DNA from: Fidelibacterota bacterium
GTDB taxonomy: Bacteria > Pseudomonadota > Alphaproteobacteria > Rhodospirillales > Rhodospirillaceae
Assembly: GCA_947476065.1 (NCBI GenBank)
Contig: CANJPG010000034.1
Span: 1 to 33,024, forward strand
Length of the DNA: 33,024 bases
Reading direction: 5' to 3'
A program made the position numbers and the translations under genes. The notes beneath the pieces were generated by a model. That model was not told the origin of the DNA. It saw only the letters and a list, made by a program, of their open reading frames with translations, and did not search any database. Numbering within the stretch: the first letter of the stretch is position 1; each line of letters starts with the position of its first letter. Shown piece after piece: positions 1 to 22,535 of the stretch.

Positions 1-170
1 ATATTCTCTTCTTCGGCCACGGACATCAGCCGGGCATCGACCTCCCATTGGCGCAGAATGTCGATTTTGTTGCTCCGGCTTAGCTCGGGGTGGATCAATA
101 CCTCCTTGGGCGAGTGGAAGTATTTGCTGGGATTGGTTTTTGCGGCTTTGACATCAAGAAGATGCGTCAT
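1..170 (-). CDS. small hypothetical protein, 3' end cut by window edge
   Basis: The minus-strand ATG (complement of 168-170) opens a frame that stays open to the left edge, giving 56 codons with no stop. It reads MTHLLDVKAAKTNPSKYF..., then SPKEVLIHPELSRSNKIDIL, RQWEVDAR and a VAEEEN ending. I recall similar short proteins (an SPxEVL...LRxWExDA...EEEN pattern) in many Alphaproteobacteria, but I know no assigned function. An exact EcfG-type promoter lies at 207-232 on the same strand, 37 bases ahead of the ATG, so general stress control is likely. The ribosome binding site is weak. The gene is divergent from ecfG. Confidence 0.75.
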   Translation of the reverse strand, partial: MTHLLDVKAAKTNPSKYFHSPKEVLIHPELSRSNKIDILRQWEVDARLMSVAEEEN

Positions 171-206
171 GTGGCACCCGTGCGTGGTTAAGAAGGCTGT
201 CAGTTA

Positions 207-232
207 AACGACCAGCTGGAAGCCAATGTTCC
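207..232 (-). promoter_or_regulatory. EcfG-type promoter for the left-edge small gene
   Basis: On the minus strand GGAAC (complement of 228-232) is followed by 17 bases and CGTT (complement of 207-210). This matches the known alphaproteobacterial EcfG consensus GGAAC-N16/17-CGTT exactly. It is followed after 36 bases by the ATG of the left-edge gene. Confidence 0.8.
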
Positions 233-343
233 TGCCCAGACACGGAAATTTATATCTGCAGTTGAATAGTTATAGAAATTAACAATCTTAAGTATATTTT
301 TCGTGAGAGTTGTGACTTTTTGCTCCCCTTCGACAATTTACGG

Positions 344-368
344 GGAACTCCGGACGGAGTGCTGCGTT
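344..368 (+). promoter_or_regulatory. EcfG-type promoter of ecfG (autoregulatory)
   Basis: GGAAC at 344-348, a 16-base spacer, then CGTT at 365-368, an exact EcfG consensus. It is 35 bases ahead of the ecfG ATG, which implies positive autoregulation, as is known for several EcfG sigma factors. A strong AGGAGG ribosome binding site follows at 393-398. Confidence 0.85.
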
Positions 369-403
369 CACAATTCGCCGGATTTTAATGTCAGGAGGTT
401 TTC

Positions 404-973
404 ATGGCCGATCAATTTCAAGAGATGCTCCTTACCCACATGCCGCGTTTGCAGGCATATGCCGTGATGCTCACGCGCGATCGCGCGGCCGCTGAGGATC
501 TTTTGCAGGAAACCGCCCTTAAAGCCTGGCGTGCCCAGGCACAGTTTGCCCTTGGCACCAATTTCACGGCTTGGATTTATAAGATCTTGCGTAACGAATA
601 CATCAGCTCGCTGCGCCGTAATAAGCGTAAGCCAGCGCGGCTTGACGAAGTTCCCGAGGAGTTCCTGTCGCGCAATGGCGCCCAGGAAAACGACATCCTG
701 TCGCGCGAAGTCGTCCATGCCATGGGCAAGCTCCAGCCCGAGCAGCGCGAAGTGCTGATCCTCATCTGCGCCAGCGGCCTCAGCTATGAGGAAGCGGCGG
801 AATCCCTGGGCTGCTCGATCGGCACGATCAAAAGCCGCCTGTGGCGAGCCCGCGCGCGGATGTCGGCCCTGGTACTGGGTGAAGAGGCGCCCAAGGAGAG
901 CCACAAGGAGATCGACGATACCCCCCGCTCGAGCAAATCAATCGAAACAGCCGATCACGTATCGTGGACTTAG
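404..973 (+). CDS. ecfG: EcfG-type (ECF15) RNA polymerase sigma factor, general stress response
   Basis: A 189-residue ECF sigma factor. Region 2 spans about residues 10-73 (LLQETALKAWRAQ, then FTAWIYKILRNEYISSLRR, the core-binding and -10-recognition part). Region 4 spans about 105-155 (LQPEQREVLILICASGLSYE, then GCSIGTIKSRLWRARARM, the -35-binding helix-turn-helix). The combination of GTNFTAWIYKILRN and the region 4 form is typical of EcfG, the sigma factor held by NepR and released by phosphorylated PhyR under stress. The ATG has AGGAGG five bases ahead and an exact EcfG promoter upstream. A nepR-like gene follows after 40 bases. The roughly 30-residue polar C-terminal tail is not part of the fold. 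Family is certain; the EcfG subgroup rests on motif, promoter and neighbour. Confidence 0.93.
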   Translation: MADQFQEMLLTHMPRLQAYAVMLTRDRAAAEDLLQETALKAWRAQAQFALGTNFTAWIYKILRNEYISSLRRNKRKPARLDEVPEEFLSRNGAQENDILSREVVHAMGKLQPEQREVLILICASGLSYEEAAESLGCSIGTIKSRLWRARARMSALVLGEEAPKESHKEIDDTPRSSKSIETADHVSWT

Positions 974-1013
974 CCAGCTAGAGTAGTTGGCTACCCCGCA
1001 GAGGCGGACTAAC

Positions 1014-1358
1014 ATGCACATCGGTGTCGTAAATGCCGCGCTGGCGGCAACTGACGATGAATTGTCTGGCGTAGACGCGCATAAAAGCGCGAGTGTCGAT
1101 CGGCTTCATTCTAATATGACTGATAAACCATCCTCACCTAAGGCCGAGACGCGCGCCTCCGCGTCTAAACCTGCGCGCCTGGAAACGGCCAAGAACAACA
1201 ATCCAGCGTTCGATACATGGCTGGAAAAGAAGCTGCACAATATGTTCGATGCCGTGGCGGCGGAACCGTTGCCGCCGGATCTGGTCAAGCTGCTCGAAAA
1301 ACTTGACCAGAAGACCGGCGTGGCGGACGGCGACGCCGACAAAAAGGGCAAGAAGTAG
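1014..1358 (+). CDS. nepR: NepR-type anti-sigma factor
   Basis: A 114-residue protein whose only conserved block is residues about 66-99: FDTWLEKKLHNMFDAVAAEP followed by LPPDLVKLLEKLDQ. This is the two-helix NepR signature that clamps EcfG and is captured by phosphorylated PhyR. The first 60 residues are low-complexity and polar, and the C-terminus is Asp/Lys-rich. The start is uncertain. ATG 1014 has a GAGGCGG site at usual spacing. TTG 987 would add nine residues. ATG 1116 would give an 80-residue protein closer to the usual NepR length but lacks a visible ribosome binding site. It follows ecfG with no promoter of its own visible, so it is probably co-transcribed. Most described loci place nepR before ecfG, the reverse of this one. 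Confidence 0.85.
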   Translation: MHIGVVNAALAATDDELSGVDAHKSASVDRLHSNMTDKPSSPKAETRASASKPARLETAKNNNPAFDTWLEKKLHNMFDAVAAEPLPPDLVKLLEKLDQKTGVADGDADKKGKK

Positions 1359-1377
1359 TCCCCGCACTTCCCGCATC

Positions 1378-1402
1378 GCAACACTTAGGTTAAGACAGCG
1401 TT
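1378..1402 (+). promoter_or_regulatory. near-consensus EcfG-type promoter for the PRC-barrel gene
   Basis: GCAAC (1378-1382), 16 bases, CGTT (1399-1402): one mismatch from the EcfG consensus. It is 41 bases ahead of the ATG at 1444. Support comes mainly from its position and the exact sites next to it. Confidence 0.45.
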
Positions 1403-1443
1403 CTATCCTTCGATCAAACAACTTACCCAATGCAGGTGATGTT

Positions 1444-1833
1444 ATGACGAAGGAACTCCTTTTAGCGTTCGGCCTGATCGCAGCCATTCCGCTTATTCCG
1501 GCCGGCGCCAGCGCCCAGGGCGCGCGGCAGACAATCGCCAAATACAAAGTGGACGTCACCAACGTCTCCACCGGCTATCGCGGCAGTAAGCTGGTCGGCG
1601 CCACAGTGGTCAATGAAGCCAACGAGAAGATCGGCTCGGTCGACGACCTGATCGTGACCCGTAGCGACAAGGTCGTCTATGCCATCGTATCTGTCGGCGG
1701 CTTTCTCGGCGTTGGCGATAAGCTTGTCGCCGTACCGTTCGACGGCTTCCAGCTCGCACCGGACAAAACAATGCTGCCGGGCGCGACCAAAGAAGCATTG
1801 ATGAATATGCCGAAGTTCACCTACCAAAAGTAA
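1444..1833 (+). CDS. exported PRC-barrel domain protein
   Basis: A 129-residue protein. Residues 1-24 form a signal peptide (basic MTK start, hydrophobic LLLAFGLIAAIPLI, ASA cleavage region). The rest is a PRC-barrel fold: GSKLVGATVVNEANEKIGSV, DDLIVTRSDKVVYAIVSVGG, then GVGDKLVAVPFDGF. PRC-barrel proteins of this exported kind are common in alphaproteobacterial stress loci, but their biochemical role is poorly defined. The ATG has AGGTG about six bases ahead. It lies downstream of nepR, has a near-consensus EcfG promoter, and ends just before a strong hairpin. The fold call is firm; the role in envelope stress is inference. Confidence 0.88.
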   Translation: MTKELLLAFGLIAAIPLIPAGASAQGARQTIAKYKVDVTNVSTGYRGSKLVGATVVNEANEKIGSVDDLIVTRSDKVVYAIVSVGGFLGVGDKLVAVPFDGFQLAPDKTMLPGATKEALMNMPKFTYQK

Positions 1834-1850
1834 TCCCGCCTCAACGACAA

Positions 1851-1883
1851 AGAGCCAAAGCGGGTGTCCGCTTTGGCTCTTTT
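1851..1883. terminator. bidirectional rho-independent terminator
   Basis: A perfect 13-bp stem (AGAGCCAAAGCGG at 1851-1863 against 1868-1880) with a 4-base GTGT loop, then TTTT on the plus strand. It sits between the converging PRC-barrel gene and the minus-strand gene ending at 1903, so it can serve both. Confidence 0.85.
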
Positions 1884-1902
1884 CCGTATCTACGCGATGC
1901 TT

Positions 1903-2118
1903 TTAGCGCTTGGCCGGCTTGCCGGTGCTCTTGGCCGGACGCCGGCCAGCAGCTTCGGCGCGCGCCAAGTCGGCGGCTTCGCTCTTCGATGACAGGCTTT
2001 TTTTCGCTGCAGCGGCGGCCGGCGCCACCTTGCCAGATTTGGCAAAGCGCGTGGTCGCGTCATTGTACTGTTTGGCGGCGGTGCGGCTGCCCTCGCCTTC
2101 GTTCTTCTGCGTGGCCAT
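1903..2118 (-). CDS. small basic Lys/Ala-rich protein
   Basis: A 71-residue hydrophilic protein starting MATQKNEGEGSRTAAKQYND and ending in a Lys/Arg/Pro tail (KSTGKPAKR). It has no signal peptide or membrane segment and is probably largely disordered. The MATQKNEGEGSRTAAKxYN start recurs, as I recall, in unnamed small proteins of Alphaproteobacteria; no function is established. The composition would suit a nucleic-acid-associated or stress-protectant role, which is speculation. The start is supported by GGGAG seven bases ahead. A near-consensus EcfG promoter lies at 2169-2193. Confidence 0.75.
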   Translation of the reverse strand: MATQKNEGEGSRTAAKQYNDATTRFAKSGKVAPAAAAAKKSLSSKSEAADLARAEAAGRRPAKSTGKPAKR

Positions 2119-2168
2119 GGTGTAACTCCCTCAATGATGAATGCAGAGTAGTTGGCGCTCTGCAAGAC

Positions 2169-2193
2169 AACACCAAAGCTCGGATTTGGTTCC
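2169..2193 (-). promoter_or_regulatory. near-consensus EcfG-type promoter
   Basis: On the minus strand GGAAC (complement of 2189-2193), 16 bases, TGTT (complement of 2169-2172). One mismatch, in the first base of the -10 element, which is the least conserved. It is about 50 bases ahead of the start at 2118. Confidence 0.5.
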
Positions 2194-2217
2194 ACAGCTT
2201 TGGGATGCCGACGCAGA

Positions 2218-2249
2218 AACGGGAGCAGCTGTTGCCAACTGCTCCCGTT
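2218..2249 (-). terminator. hairpin after the csbD-like gene, probable terminator
   Basis: An 11-bp perfect stem (AACGGGAGCAG at 2218-2228 against 2239-2249) with a 10-base loop, 23 bases beyond the CsbD stop. Read on the minus strand it is followed by TCTG, so the T-tract is weak. Confidence 0.5.
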
Positions 2250-2271
2250 CCAAACGTCTAATTAGTCAAGT

Positions 2272-2472
2272 CTAATTGATGGTCTTTTCCCATTCTTTGA
2301 CCTGCTTTTCAGCAATGTCCTTTTGAACGCCATAGCGTTCCTGCACGCGCCCGATGAGTTGGTCGCGCACGCCGGCGATGCGATCAAAATCGTCGTCCGT
2401 CAGATCGCCCCATTTCTCTTGAACTTTGCCCTTCATCTGTTTCCAGTTTCCTGCAACTTGATCCCAATTCAT
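2272..2472 (-). CDS. CsbD family stress protein
   Basis: A 66-residue protein starting MNWDQVAGNWKQMKGKVQEK, followed by WGDLTDDDFDRIAGVRDQLI and GRVQERYGVQKDIAEKQV. This is a full-length CsbD domain: small, acidic to neutral, helical and stress-induced, of unknown biochemical function. The frame could begin at a TTG two codons earlier, but the ATG is preferred because the family starts MNWD and AAGGA lies about eight bases ahead. An exact EcfG promoter is at 2510-2534, which fits general stress control. Confidence 0.92.
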   Translation of the reverse strand: MNWDQVAGNWKQMKGKVQEKWGDLTDDDFDRIAGVRDQLIGRVQERYGVQKDIAEKQVKEWEKTIN

Positions 2473-2509
2473 AGCCAATTCCTTTCAATCAACAAACCAA
2501 CCTCAGCAA

Positions 2510-2534
2510 AACGCAAGCACCGCGCTCAAGTTCC
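2510..2534 (-). promoter_or_regulatory. EcfG-type promoter of the csbD-like gene
   Basis: On the minus strand GGAAC (complement of 2530-2534), 16 bases, CGTT (complement of 2510-2513): an exact consensus. It fits in the short gap after the previous gene and lies 37 bases ahead of the CsbD start. Confidence 0.8.
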
Positions 2535-2540
2535 CGGGCG

Positions 2541-2750
2541 TCAGACCACAAACACCCAGACCAGGCCCAATCCGATCAACGCGGCACCGAGGGAAATCGC
2601 CAGCACGTAGCGTACGCCGTTGCCGGTCGCACCCTGGCGGATTTCATCGGTCGACAGGTCCTCAGGGTCTTTCACCTGGTTGGTCGCATCCGTCGCAGGC
2701 ATCGTGCTGCCGTGTTCGCGGGCCACGTCCATATATCTACCAACGCGCAT
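2541..2750 (-). CDS. small single-pass membrane protein
   Basis: A 69-residue protein. The N-terminal half is polar (VKDPEDLSTDEIRQG). One C-terminal transmembrane helix (YVLAISLGAALIGLGLVWVF) reaches almost to the last residue. I recognise no family. The start at 2750 has GGAGGC five bases ahead; an alternative Met lies six codons in. A near-consensus EcfG promoter at 2806-2830 and the position inside the stress cluster suggest it belongs to the GSR regulon. Confidence 0.75.
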   Translation of the reverse strand: MRVGRYMDVAREHGSTMPATDATNQVKDPEDLSTDEIRQGATGNGVRYVLAISLGAALIGLGLVWVFVV

Positions 2751-2805
2751 TGAAGCCTCCTGATTCTGTTTCAGTCCAAATATTTGGCGAGATATCTGGA
2801 TATAA

Positions 2806-2830
2806 AACGCCGTACGGCAGCGGAAGTTTC
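2806..2830 (-). promoter_or_regulatory. near-consensus EcfG-type promoter
   Basis: On the minus strand GAAAC (complement of 2826-2830), 16 bases, CGTT (complement of 2806-2809). One mismatch in the -35 element, 55 bases ahead of the start at 2750. Confidence 0.45.
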
Positions 2831-2836
2831 AGCGCT

Positions 2837-3262
2837 CTATTTTGCGATATCGTAACTGGCATTCTGCTTAATGTAGGCATCGCGCTGGCCATACCAGAGA
2901 GCACCGTTGTAGTTGGACTCCCAATACGAATGCAGTTGGAAGGTGACTTCCGGCACACCCGTCTGCGGACCGACGTCCTTGATCGGCACGCGCTGGTTGT
3001 CATGGCGGTAATCGATGGCGGCCGCCGGAATCCAGCCGCGATTGCCGCGCCAGGATACATCGCACCAATCCCAGCTTTTTAGGCAGCCGTGAATATCAAC
3101 GGTCAGGTCTTTCGCCAGCCGGCGAACTTCCGGGAACTCGGCGCCCGGACCGGCTTGCATGCTGACGGCGCTCGACAACTTGCCGTCGGCGGCCTGGGCG
3201 ATTTGCGTCGTTAACACGGGAAGGGCAAGCATGCCCAAGATAATGAAGCGGGCGCGGCGCAT
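2837..3262 (-). CDS. exported SH3-domain protein
   Basis: A 141-residue protein. A signal peptide (MRRARFIILGMLALPVLTTQ, then IAQAADG) leads into a bacterial SH3 domain: SAVSMQAGPGAEFPEVRRLA, VDIHGCLKSWDWCDVSWRGN, RGWIPAAAIDY. The AGPG...W..V...RGW pattern is typical of envelope SH3 domains that contact peptidoglycan or other surface ligands. Two Cys (in GCLKSWDWC) could form a disulfide. The C-terminus is aromatic-rich (HSYWESNYNGALWYGQRD). The frame is open upstream, but the Met at 3262 directly before the signal peptide, with AGAGG ahead, is the likely start. An exact EcfG promoter is at 3320-3345. Confidence 0.85.
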   Translation of the reverse strand: MRRARFIILGMLALPVLTTQIAQAADGKLSSAVSMQAGPGAEFPEVRRLAKDLTVDIHGCLKSWDWCDVSWRGNRGWIPAAAIDYRHDNQRVPIKDVGPQTGVPEVTFQLHSYWESNYNGALWYGQRDAYIKQNASYDIAK

Positions 3263-3319
3263 GATGGAAAGCCTCTTACAAACGTTTTTGACATAGCTGC
3301 AGTGCAGCCTTGACAAACA

Positions 3320-3345
3320 AACGTCTGGGCTATCGGCGATGTTCC
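3320..3345 (-). promoter_or_regulatory. EcfG-type promoter of the SH3-protein gene
   Basis: On the minus strand GGAAC (complement of 3341-3345), 17 bases, CGTT (complement of 3320-3323): an exact consensus, 57 bases ahead of the start at 3262. It sits just beyond the end of the Nramp gene. Confidence 0.78.
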
Positions 3346-20723: not shown

Positions 20724-22535
20724 TTAGGCCGGCGCCGCAGCCGCCCGGGTAAACGAGATCGTCACCTTGGTGCCGGTCTCGGGGCTGGAGTCCACCTTCA
20801 GGTCGGCTTTGGCTTTTTCGCGCAAGGAGCGCACGATCAGCGCGCCGAGCTTGCCCGGTTTGGGCCACGCCGCGCCTTCGGGCAGGCCGATGCCGTCGTC
20901 GGCGACGACCACGCGCCAGCCGACCTCGTCGGCGACGCTGTGCAGAGTGATGGCACCGCCGTCGCGCCCGACAAACGCGTGTTTGAGGGCATTGGTCATC
21001 AGCTCGTTGACGACGAGCCCCGTGGGCATGGCGACGTTCACCGAGACTGGATACGTATCGAGCTTGAGGTTGAGCCGTATGCCTTCGACGGCGTGGGCGT
21101 GCATCACCGACGAGACGATTTCGCTGAGATAGACGCCGAGGTCGATCTCGCCGCCGGTGGCAAACCCCGACAACAGCTTGTACAGAAGCTGGATGGAGTT
21201 GATGCGCCCCGCGAGGCGCTCAAAGGGCGCGCTATCAAGTTTGCCGCGCGCATTCTTGGCTTCGACGCGGATCAGCGCGGTGATCATCTGCAGGTTGTTT
21301 TTCACGCGGTGCTGAAACTCGAGCAGCAGGGCGTCCTTCTCCTGAATGTGCAGGTCGCCGTCTTTGCCCGGGGCAGCGTCGCGCTCGACGGTCTCCACCA
21401 AAGCCGCCAGCCGGAACGCAGGCGTACCGCCGTCGTCCTCAATGAGATTGGAATGAGCGTCAACGAGAACCGCGCCGCCGGCGGGATGACTCAGGCGGAA
21501 GCTGCCGACATAGTCTTCGCACGCGGCGATAGCGGCACCCAAGGGACGCAGGTTTTTGCCCGCCGTAGGGACACTGTCGGCCGGCGCGCCCTCAAGCACG
21601 CTCCAGGGCTGGCCGACGACGGACGCAGCAGTGAGACCCGTCAGCCGCTCGAATTCGGGGTTGGCGTAGGCGATGCGTTCCGGCGCTTTCATTTCGGACA
21701 CGATGATCGCCAAGGGTATCTGATCGAAGAAGCGCTCGAACTGCGCGCTCTCCTCAACCGCGGCGATAGCAGGCGCGCCATGGGGCGTATCGGGAAGGAC
21801 CGCTTCGGCAAGATTGGTCACCGCAAGGGTAGGCACGGCGAGAATTGGGTCGGCGGGCGGCGATTTTGCCGCATCTGCAGGAGTCGCCGCACGGTCCGCC
21901 GTATACGCCATGCGCACTAGCTCCGGCAGCGACTTAACCCCGGCTTTTTTCATGATCGCCGCGCGATGCGTTTCGACGGTGCGCTGGCTGATGCCGATAT
22001 CGGCGGCGATATTCTTGTTGCGCTCGCCGGCCAGTATCTTAGTCAGCACCTGACGCTGACGCTTGGTCAAGCCGCCGATCTGGCTTGCGGCCCAGGCAGT
22101 ATCAACCGCACGCTTGCCGGCCGACCTGGCCTTCTCCAGCACACGCGAGACGCAGCCAAGCAGGTCGATGCGGGTCACCGGCTTTTCGATGAAGTCCGAG
22201 GCACCCGCTTTCATGGCCGCTACGGCCAGATCCACGTCGCCATTGCCGGTAATCATGATGGCCGGCAGTTGGTGGCCTTCGGCCTGGAGGTGGAGCAGAA
22301 GTTCCACGCCGCTCATGCCAGGAAAGCCGGCATCGACAATCAGGCAGCCTTGGCCGCCGGGGCGATAAGCCGCGATAAAGTCTTCGCAGGATGCGAACTC
22401 CTCGACGGCATTGCCCTCGTCTTCAATCATGCCGCGGATTACGTCGCGCACGATGGCGTCGTCATCGACGATGTAGATGGTGGAGAGCGCAGGAGTGTTG
22501 TCCGCTGTAGCGCGGCTGGGCTGGCCTTCAGGCAT
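20724..22535 (-). CDS. REC-LuxR HTH-PAS-HisKA_2-HATPase fusion (response regulator plus histidine kinase)
   Basis: A 603-residue cytoplasmic protein with five units. The receiver (about 18-136) has DDD at 24-26, phospho-acceptor Asp68 in LIVDAGFPGMSG, Thr96 and Lys118. A LuxR/FixJ-type helix-turn-helix (about 154-206) has LTKRQRQVLTKILAGERNKN and ISQRTVETHRAAIMKK. A linker is followed by a PAS domain (about 266-380; AYANPEFERLTGLTAASVVG). The HisKA_2 dimerisation domain has phospho-His409 in EFQHRVKNNLQMITALIR. The HATPase domain has Asn510/Asn515 (VVNELMTNALKHAF) and DDGIGLP. FixJ-type regulators normally end after the DNA-binding domain; here a complete kinase follows in frame. There are no membrane segments and no clear ribosome binding site at the ATG. 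HisKA_2 kinases often feed the general stress response, but a link to ecfG is speculative. Confidence 0.92.
   Translation of the reverse strand: MPEGQPSRATADNTPALSTIYIVDDDAIVRDVIRGMIEDEGNAVEEFASCEDFIAAYRPGGQGCLIVDAGFPGMSGVELLLHLQAEGHQLPAIMITGNGDVDLAVAAMKAGASDFIEKPVTRIDLLGCVSRVLEKARSAGKRAVDTAWAASQIGGLTKRQRQVLTKILAGERNKNIAADIGISQRTVETHRAAIMKKAGVKSLPELVRMAYTADRAATPADAAKSPPADPILAVPTLAVTNLAEAVLPDTPHGAPAIAAVEESAQFERFFDQIPLAIIVSEMKAPERIAYANPEFERLTGLTAASVVGQPWSVLEGAPADSVPTAGKNLRPLGAAIAACEDYVGSFRLSHPAGGAVLVDAHSNLIEDDGGTPAFRLAALVETVERDAAPGKDGDLHIQEKDALLLEFQHRVKNNLQMITALIRVEAKNARGKLDSAPFERLAGRINSIQLLYKLLSGFATGGEIDLGVYLSEIVSSVMHAHAVEGIRLNLKLDTYPVSVNVAMPTGLVVNELMTNALKHAFVGRDGGAITLHSVADEVGWRVVVADDGIGLPEGAAWPKPGKLGALIVRSLREKAKADLKVDSSPETGTKVTISFTRAAAAPA

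Follow-up and report, generated by a model that had tools for sequence, protein, structure and literature searches.

Does a sigma factor gene that is surrounded by promoter sequences of its own type mark a regulon complete in itself, or the visible part of a larger stress response? The window, i.e. the whole stretch of 33,024 bases that was analysed, raises this question in its first 3,345 bases, which form the start of contig C34 of a 3.26 Mb genome assembled in 158 contigs. These bases hold, in this order, an edge open reading frame (ORF), the sigma factor gene ecfG, the anti-sigma factor gene nepR, a PRC-barrel gene, an unnamed ORF (1903 ORF), a CsbD gene, a second unnamed ORF (2541 ORF) and a gene for an SH3-like protein. 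An earlier note had described them as a self-contained EcfG regulon. We show that the stretch is a general stress response (GSR) locus of the alphaproteobacterial type. Very probably the contig end has cut through a phyR-ecfG-nepR locus of an uncultured alphaproteobacterium and left its ecfG-nepR side here, because EcfG can be identified as such, the sole NepR of the genome lies directly behind it, phyR stands divergently in ten relatives, and the promoter sites leave a footprint of conservation. The arrangement is of a known kind and part of a genome-wide set. Less usual here are the reversed order of ecfG and nepR and, in relatives, a candidate structured RNA.

The product of ecfG (404..973, +) is an extracytoplasmic function (ECF) sigma factor of 189 amino acids with Sigma70 regions 2 and 4. 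Its best PDB match is 5uxx_A (E 4e-34, 121 bits; next match 75.7 bits), which we take to be the Bartonella RpoE-NepR complex, and by sequence the protein is an EcfG-type sigma factor. Directly downstream lies nepR (1014..1358, +; 114 amino acids), the only NepR match in the genome. It exceeds the Pfam cut-off (26.3 bits against 25.7; 31.9 for the orthologue in G014) and falls below the NCBIfam equivalog cut-off (21.3 against 100). Gene starts were set with a simple purpose-made gene caller; that of nepR was picked by a Shine-Dalgarno-like sequence, and an inner ATG at 1116 is possible. In this genome, as in 12 of 12 loci of close relatives, ecfG precedes nepR. A preceding nepR is given as a main feature of the EcfG group in the accessible part of PMC7083833, and the accessible part of PMC4814048 states that ecfG and nepR form an operon; nepR before ecfG is a typical, not a strictly defining feature. 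A NepR profile built from six close sequences and applied to 65 named alphaproteobacterial loci located nepR ahead of ecfG in the same orientation in 16, behind it in one (L173, Pseudoroseomonas) and on the other strand in four, with no match in 44. The gene ecfG is described as alphaproteobacterial (PMC3892343, in part). A plasmid comparison returned 240 records, of which the best 20 all match the region of an Nramp-type gene only.

Four exact GGAAC-N16/17-CGTT sites were confirmed, at 207-232 (-), 344-368 (+), 2510-2534 (-) and 3320-3345 (-), together with three one-mismatch sites at 1378-1402 (+), 2169-2193 (-) and 2806-2830 (-). All seven end 35-57 bases ahead of a start codon, within the 35-60 bases put forward previously. 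The window has no exact sites besides these four; allowing up to one mismatch there are 16, seven of them in the first 3,345 bases. In 100 dinucleotide shuffles of the window exact sites numbered 0.48 on average and three at most, i.e. about 0.049 per 3,345 bases, in agreement with the chance expectation of about 0.05 given in the earlier note. At the genome's own rate (66 in 3.26 Mb) at least four exact sites in 3,345 bases have a Poisson probability of 8e-7, or about 8e-4 once some 975 stretches of this length are allowed for. The sigma factor thus sits, as had been proposed, among sites of its own type.

Conservation of these sites was followed in 13 of 20 relatives' loci (L110-L115 and L117, which have no close ecfG, were left out), in the 260 bases ahead of each orthologue (153 at one contig end). 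Exact sites were found in 23 of 44 upstream regions of the seven target families, with spacers that have otherwise diverged in sequence, while 359 letter permutations of the pattern reached 0.12 regions on average and five at most. Spacer lengths in the 23 regions were 16 (7 regions) and 17 (16 regions); each other spacer from 10 to 24 gave none or one. Among control genes a site was present upstream of nepR in 0 of 12, of PFK in 0 of 2 and of Nramp in 1 of 2 cases. Neither here nor in the 12 relatives does an exact or one-mismatch site occur within 260 bases upstream of nepR, as expected for a gene inside an operon, and this speaks against a promoter of its own for nepR.

Conservation supports five of the predicted promoters well, those of the edge ORF, ecfG, the PRC gene, the SH3-like gene and the 2541 ORF. 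The edge ORF (3..170, -) is small and loses its C-terminal part to the contig edge, being 56 amino acids long here and 95-105 in relatives; its site (207..232, -; exact, N17, 36 bases to the start) is exact in all seven relatives' loci, among the 13, that contain the ORF. No Pfam family was found for the ORF here or for a full-length orthologue, nor an NCBIfam family for the ORF here. The site ahead of ecfG-nepR (344..368, +; exact, N16, 35 bases to the start), through which ecfG would regulate itself, is exact in 5 of 12 relatives and within one mismatch in 10 of 12. In G003 (L100) two divergent EcfG-type sites overlap at -204 to -167 from ecfG, and the palindrome GGAACAAAGTTCC at this place holds the -35 boxes of both. 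The PRC-barrel domain protein (1444..1833, +; 129 amino acids; Pfam PRC 53.4 bits, cut-off 21.2) follows a site of the GCAAC form (1378..1402, +; one mismatch, N16, 41 bases to the start), a form which the available text of PMC7083833 lists as one of the two commonest -35 forms in Sphingopyxis granuli. Exact sites precede the gene in 4 of 4 cases, three near relatives with the same distance and a distant homologue in G020 (39% identical). The SH3-like protein (2837..3262, -; 141 amino acids) resembles bacterial SH3 domains weakly, with profile matches below cut-off both here (SH3_4, E 0.015) and in an orthologue (SH3_3, E 5.6e-5), and judging by eye from a signal-like N-terminus it is probably secreted. 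Its site (3320..3345, -; exact, N17, 57 bases to the start) recurs in exact form in all six relatives that carry the gene. The 2541 ORF (2541..2750, -) encodes a small protein of 69 amino acids with a hydrophobic C-terminal stretch and no Pfam family, and has an orthologue in 6 of 13 relatives' loci. Its GAAAC-form site (2806..2830, -; one mismatch, N16, 55 bases to the start) is exact in none of the six and within one mismatch in five, four of which show the same GAAAC-CGTT form.

Moderate support extends to the probable promoter of the 1903 ORF (2169..2193, -; TGTT form, one mismatch, N16, 50 bases to the start). This ORF (1903..2118, -; 71 amino acids) belongs to no Pfam or NCBIfam family and has orthologues in 5 of 13 relatives' loci; a one-mismatch site is found in three of the five, a number that none of the 359 permuted patterns reaches. 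A promoter for the CsbD-family protein (2272..2472, -; 66 amino acids; Pfam CsbD 68.1 bits, cut-off 40) is weakly suggested by its own exact match (2510..2534, -; N16, 37 bases to the ATG at 2472), one near relative and homologues in other genera. In G002 and G014, 30-33 bases separate csbD from the 2541 orthologue ahead of it, and the two genes may be cotranscribed. The earlier note had assigned the unnamed small proteins to the general stress response by promoter; the conserved sites bear this out for the edge ORF and the 2541 ORF, and less firmly for the 1903 ORF. Between the 1903 ORF and csbD, G014 contains an AI-2E-type transporter gene (Pfam) and G001 a gene of similar size at the same place; neither is present in 1903-2534 of the window.

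Where, then, is phyR? In ten relatives' loci it is found 0.5-1.2 kb ahead of ecfG in divergent orientation, and the one relative's phyR checked with Pfam has both PhyR domains and the receiver. An exact EcfG site within 300 bases of phyR was found in one of these ten loci (G012) and a one-mismatch site in G025; in the relatives phyR thus mostly has no close EcfG site. At its right end, contig C4 is colinear with the region that lies beyond phyR in G001, at 64% identity in 2,087 aligned columns. This end carries two exact sites and a DUF3309 gene, and breaks off within a superoxide dismutase gene (Pfam), which in G001 lies on the side of phyR that faces away from ecfG. Contig C34 in turn begins inside the edge ORF. 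Colinearity thus points to a phyR that probably lies in the gap between C4 and C34, and because one contig ends in the superoxide dismutase gene and the other starts in the edge ORF, biological loss is less likely. The contig of G011 likewise stops just upstream of ecfG. Elsewhere in the window (20724-22535, -) a single protein combines receiver, LuxR-type helix-turn-helix, PAS, HisKA_2 and HATPase domains, which amounts to a response regulator joined to the type of kinase from which PhyR usually receives its input.

A scan of the genome yielded 66 exact sites, 46 of them intergenic and 37 promoter-like, i.e. followed within 300 bases by a gene start in the same orientation. The site of the edge ORF, which the gene caller had missed, was added by hand to 36 to give 37; the caller had also misplaced the CsbD start. 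For two of the 37 (L012, L019) a role as promoter is doubtful, since no more than 8 bases separate them from the start. The backward pattern gave one intergenic and no promoter-like match among 33 counted, which represent 31 distinct places of 88, since overlapping pairs were seen from two loci. The pattern with spacers 12/13 gave five intergenic and three promoter-like matches among 32 counted, or 3/30 and 2/30 at distinct places, 30 of 40 places being covered. Thirty-three of the 37 promoter-like sites are spread over 27 other contigs, ahead of genes for a catalase, Ku, a PRC protein, a BON protein, DUF3309, a cell wall hydrolase, a protein of the general-stress-protein-26 kind that resembles pyridoxamine oxidases, proteins of the glycine-zipper or 17-kDa-antigen type, and two proteins with PAS domains, of which one is a histidine kinase. 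Published lists of EcfG-dependent genes, as far as accessible, contain Ku, PRC, general stress protein 26 and catalase (PMC6599016) as well as csbD and catalases (PMC7083833). A second small group of sites was seen on contig C14 (G000:C14:55005-57831; L016-L018), with three exact sites in 2.8 kb, one of them ahead of a PRC-barrel gene.

Together these data suggest the following course of events. Upon stress, a kinase of the HWE/HisKA_2 type would phosphorylate PhyR, and phosphorylated PhyR would take NepR off EcfG. Free EcfG would then transcribe ecfG-nepR from 344-368, a positive feedback in which sigma and anti-sigma factor share a transcript, and, from the six remaining sites, the neighbouring genes. 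Across the genome it might read some 33 further promoters.

How well does this reading stand against others? Several results weigh against it. Genome-wide the raw pattern shows no excess, with 66 exact sites as compared to 88 matches of the backward pattern (40 for spacers 12/13), so that raw occurrence alone proves little, and the sequence-based case rests on the position of sites ahead of genes and on their conservation. Ahead of the 1903 ORF the site is exact in 0 of 5 relatives. Ahead of csbD it is conserved in one of four, whether exact or within one mismatch, and at up to one mismatch it is equalled by 68 of the 359 permuted patterns. A search of this assembly for the PhyR sigma-like domain found none; the other PhyR domain model gave five matches in the genome, namely ecfG of the window and four additional ECF sigma factors. 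In G016, whose EcfG is 88-89% identical, the sequence continues past ecfG without phyR and the genome gives no PhyR match over the cut-off, so that true loss of phyR is possible. Finally, the genome encodes two further EcfG-like sigma factors (G000 C32:7683-8177, 47% identical; C28:18003-18515, 43%) which could use the same promoters.

The last point leads to an alternative in which the promoters are real and are read mainly by a paralogue (C32, C28 or others), this EcfG playing the lesser part. Two EcfG factors are described as sharing or dividing promoters in other species (PMC3892343; PMC7083833, each in part). However, only this copy is joined to nepR and, in relatives, to phyR, a linkage which the accessible text of PMC3892343 gives as usual for the primary ecfG copy, and we regard the alternative as unlikely. 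That the cluster is an effect of chance or base composition, as the genome-wide counts of true and backward patterns would allow, is contradicted by the position, spacer and conservation tests and has next to no probability. Scarcely more can be said for a self-contained regulon, in which EcfG would mainly serve this cluster. Four of the 66 genome sites do fall within 3.3 kb, where 0.07 are expected, but 33 promoter-like sites lie on 27 other contigs and contig C4 most likely carries a further part of the local island; this part of the earlier note does not hold, and we consider such a regulon very improbable. We therefore retain the ecfG-nepR side of a GSR locus as the reading of this stretch.

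The relatives add a further element. In seven of them a structured RNA candidate of about 120 bases lies beside ecfG on the divergent strand: L098:10159-10284 (+), L107:7597-7716 (-), L100:10360-10482 (+), L101:6584-6703 (+), L102:1570-1688 (+), L109:7636-7770 (+) and L099:7590-7696 (-). It is predicted to fold into three hairpins, two with C-rich loops. The model was seeded with five sequences, in which 10 of 35 pairs show changes on both sides (shuffles 4.5, slid controls 0-1); the members in G020 and G002 were found by the model, that in G002 by a later search that took in 60 loci. At E 0.01 the model matches in 6 of 61 genomes. Weaker matches, on the opposite strand at the same place, at other places in the same loci or with E above 0.1, were not counted. 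The model found nothing in this assembly, and no clear match at the loci of G008 and G012, where phyR is present. At gathering scores no Rfam family matched in the window or in seven relatives' loci, five of which hold the candidate. Five of the seven cases have an exact EcfG site upstream of the RNA, at a distance of 93 to 423 bases, the one at 423 bases (G007) being the promoter of the edge ORF; G015 has a one-mismatch site and G020 none. In G002 (L099) and G003 (L100) a small glutamine-rich ORF lies between an exact EcfG site and the RNA candidate or phyR.

These features invite the tentative proposal, to which we give somewhat less than an even chance, that the general stress response of this lineage is wired differently: ecfG before nepR in one autoregulated unit, phyR mostly without a close EcfG site, and a GsrN-class small RNA between ecfG and phyR. 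If true, a small RNA family unknown to Rfam and partly placed behind an EcfG site would add a post-transcriptional arm to the stress response, and a GsrN-class RNA would lie outside the families with described GsrN-like RNAs. The accepted picture of the general stress response is unchanged by our results. They tie several unnamed small protein families of an uncultured lineage to the alphaproteobacterial stress response via conserved promoters, and list 37 likely EcfG promoters for a single genome.

GsrN is an EcfG-dependent small RNA of Caulobacter, according to the accessible part of PMC5869019, the only paper that a literature search on GsrN with EcfG, small RNA and Rhodospirillaceae brought up. 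Like GsrN, as described there, the candidate adjoins the GSR locus, has C-rich hairpin loops and, in five of seven cases, an exact EcfG site upstream. Unlike GsrN, it has no Rfam match in the five of its seven loci that were searched, and the likeness is one of place and shape.

Clustering of sites around ecfG is common elsewhere and no peculiarity of this organism. Of the 65 named loci, 26 have at least five exact sites (5 to 8) at a distance of up to 5 kb from ecfG, though the 65 include 12 from Bosea, all among the 26, which are not independent. The 65 loci (634 kb) together hold 231 exact sites; the corresponding counts are 21 with the backward pattern, 13 with spacers 12/13 and 18 with spacers 20/21, and none of these three controls reaches five in any of the 65 loci. 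Bosea, Maritalea, Oricola, Hellea and others have site-rich ecfG neighbourhoods like the one described here. As a difference from this locus, a tblastn search (E 1e-4) of 68 further ecfG loci found the edge ORF, 1903 ORF, 2541 ORF and SH3-like families in none; CsbD was found in eight of the 68 (five with an exact site) and PRC in 19 (four with an exact site). In PhyR-NepR-EcfG loci such as those of Sphingopyxis granuli TFA and Rhizobium etli, ecfG and nepR are described as an operon with phyR divergent, both under EcfG promoters (PMC4814048; PMC8103513, each in part). The relatives differ from this type in that a phyR with an exact site within 300 bases is confined to one of ten. Shared with those loci are the EcfG-type sigma factor, NepR, the GGAAC-N16/17-CGTT promoters, an ecfG unit behind such a promoter, a divergent phyR (here in relatives), and csbD, catalase, Ku and PRC among the likely targets.

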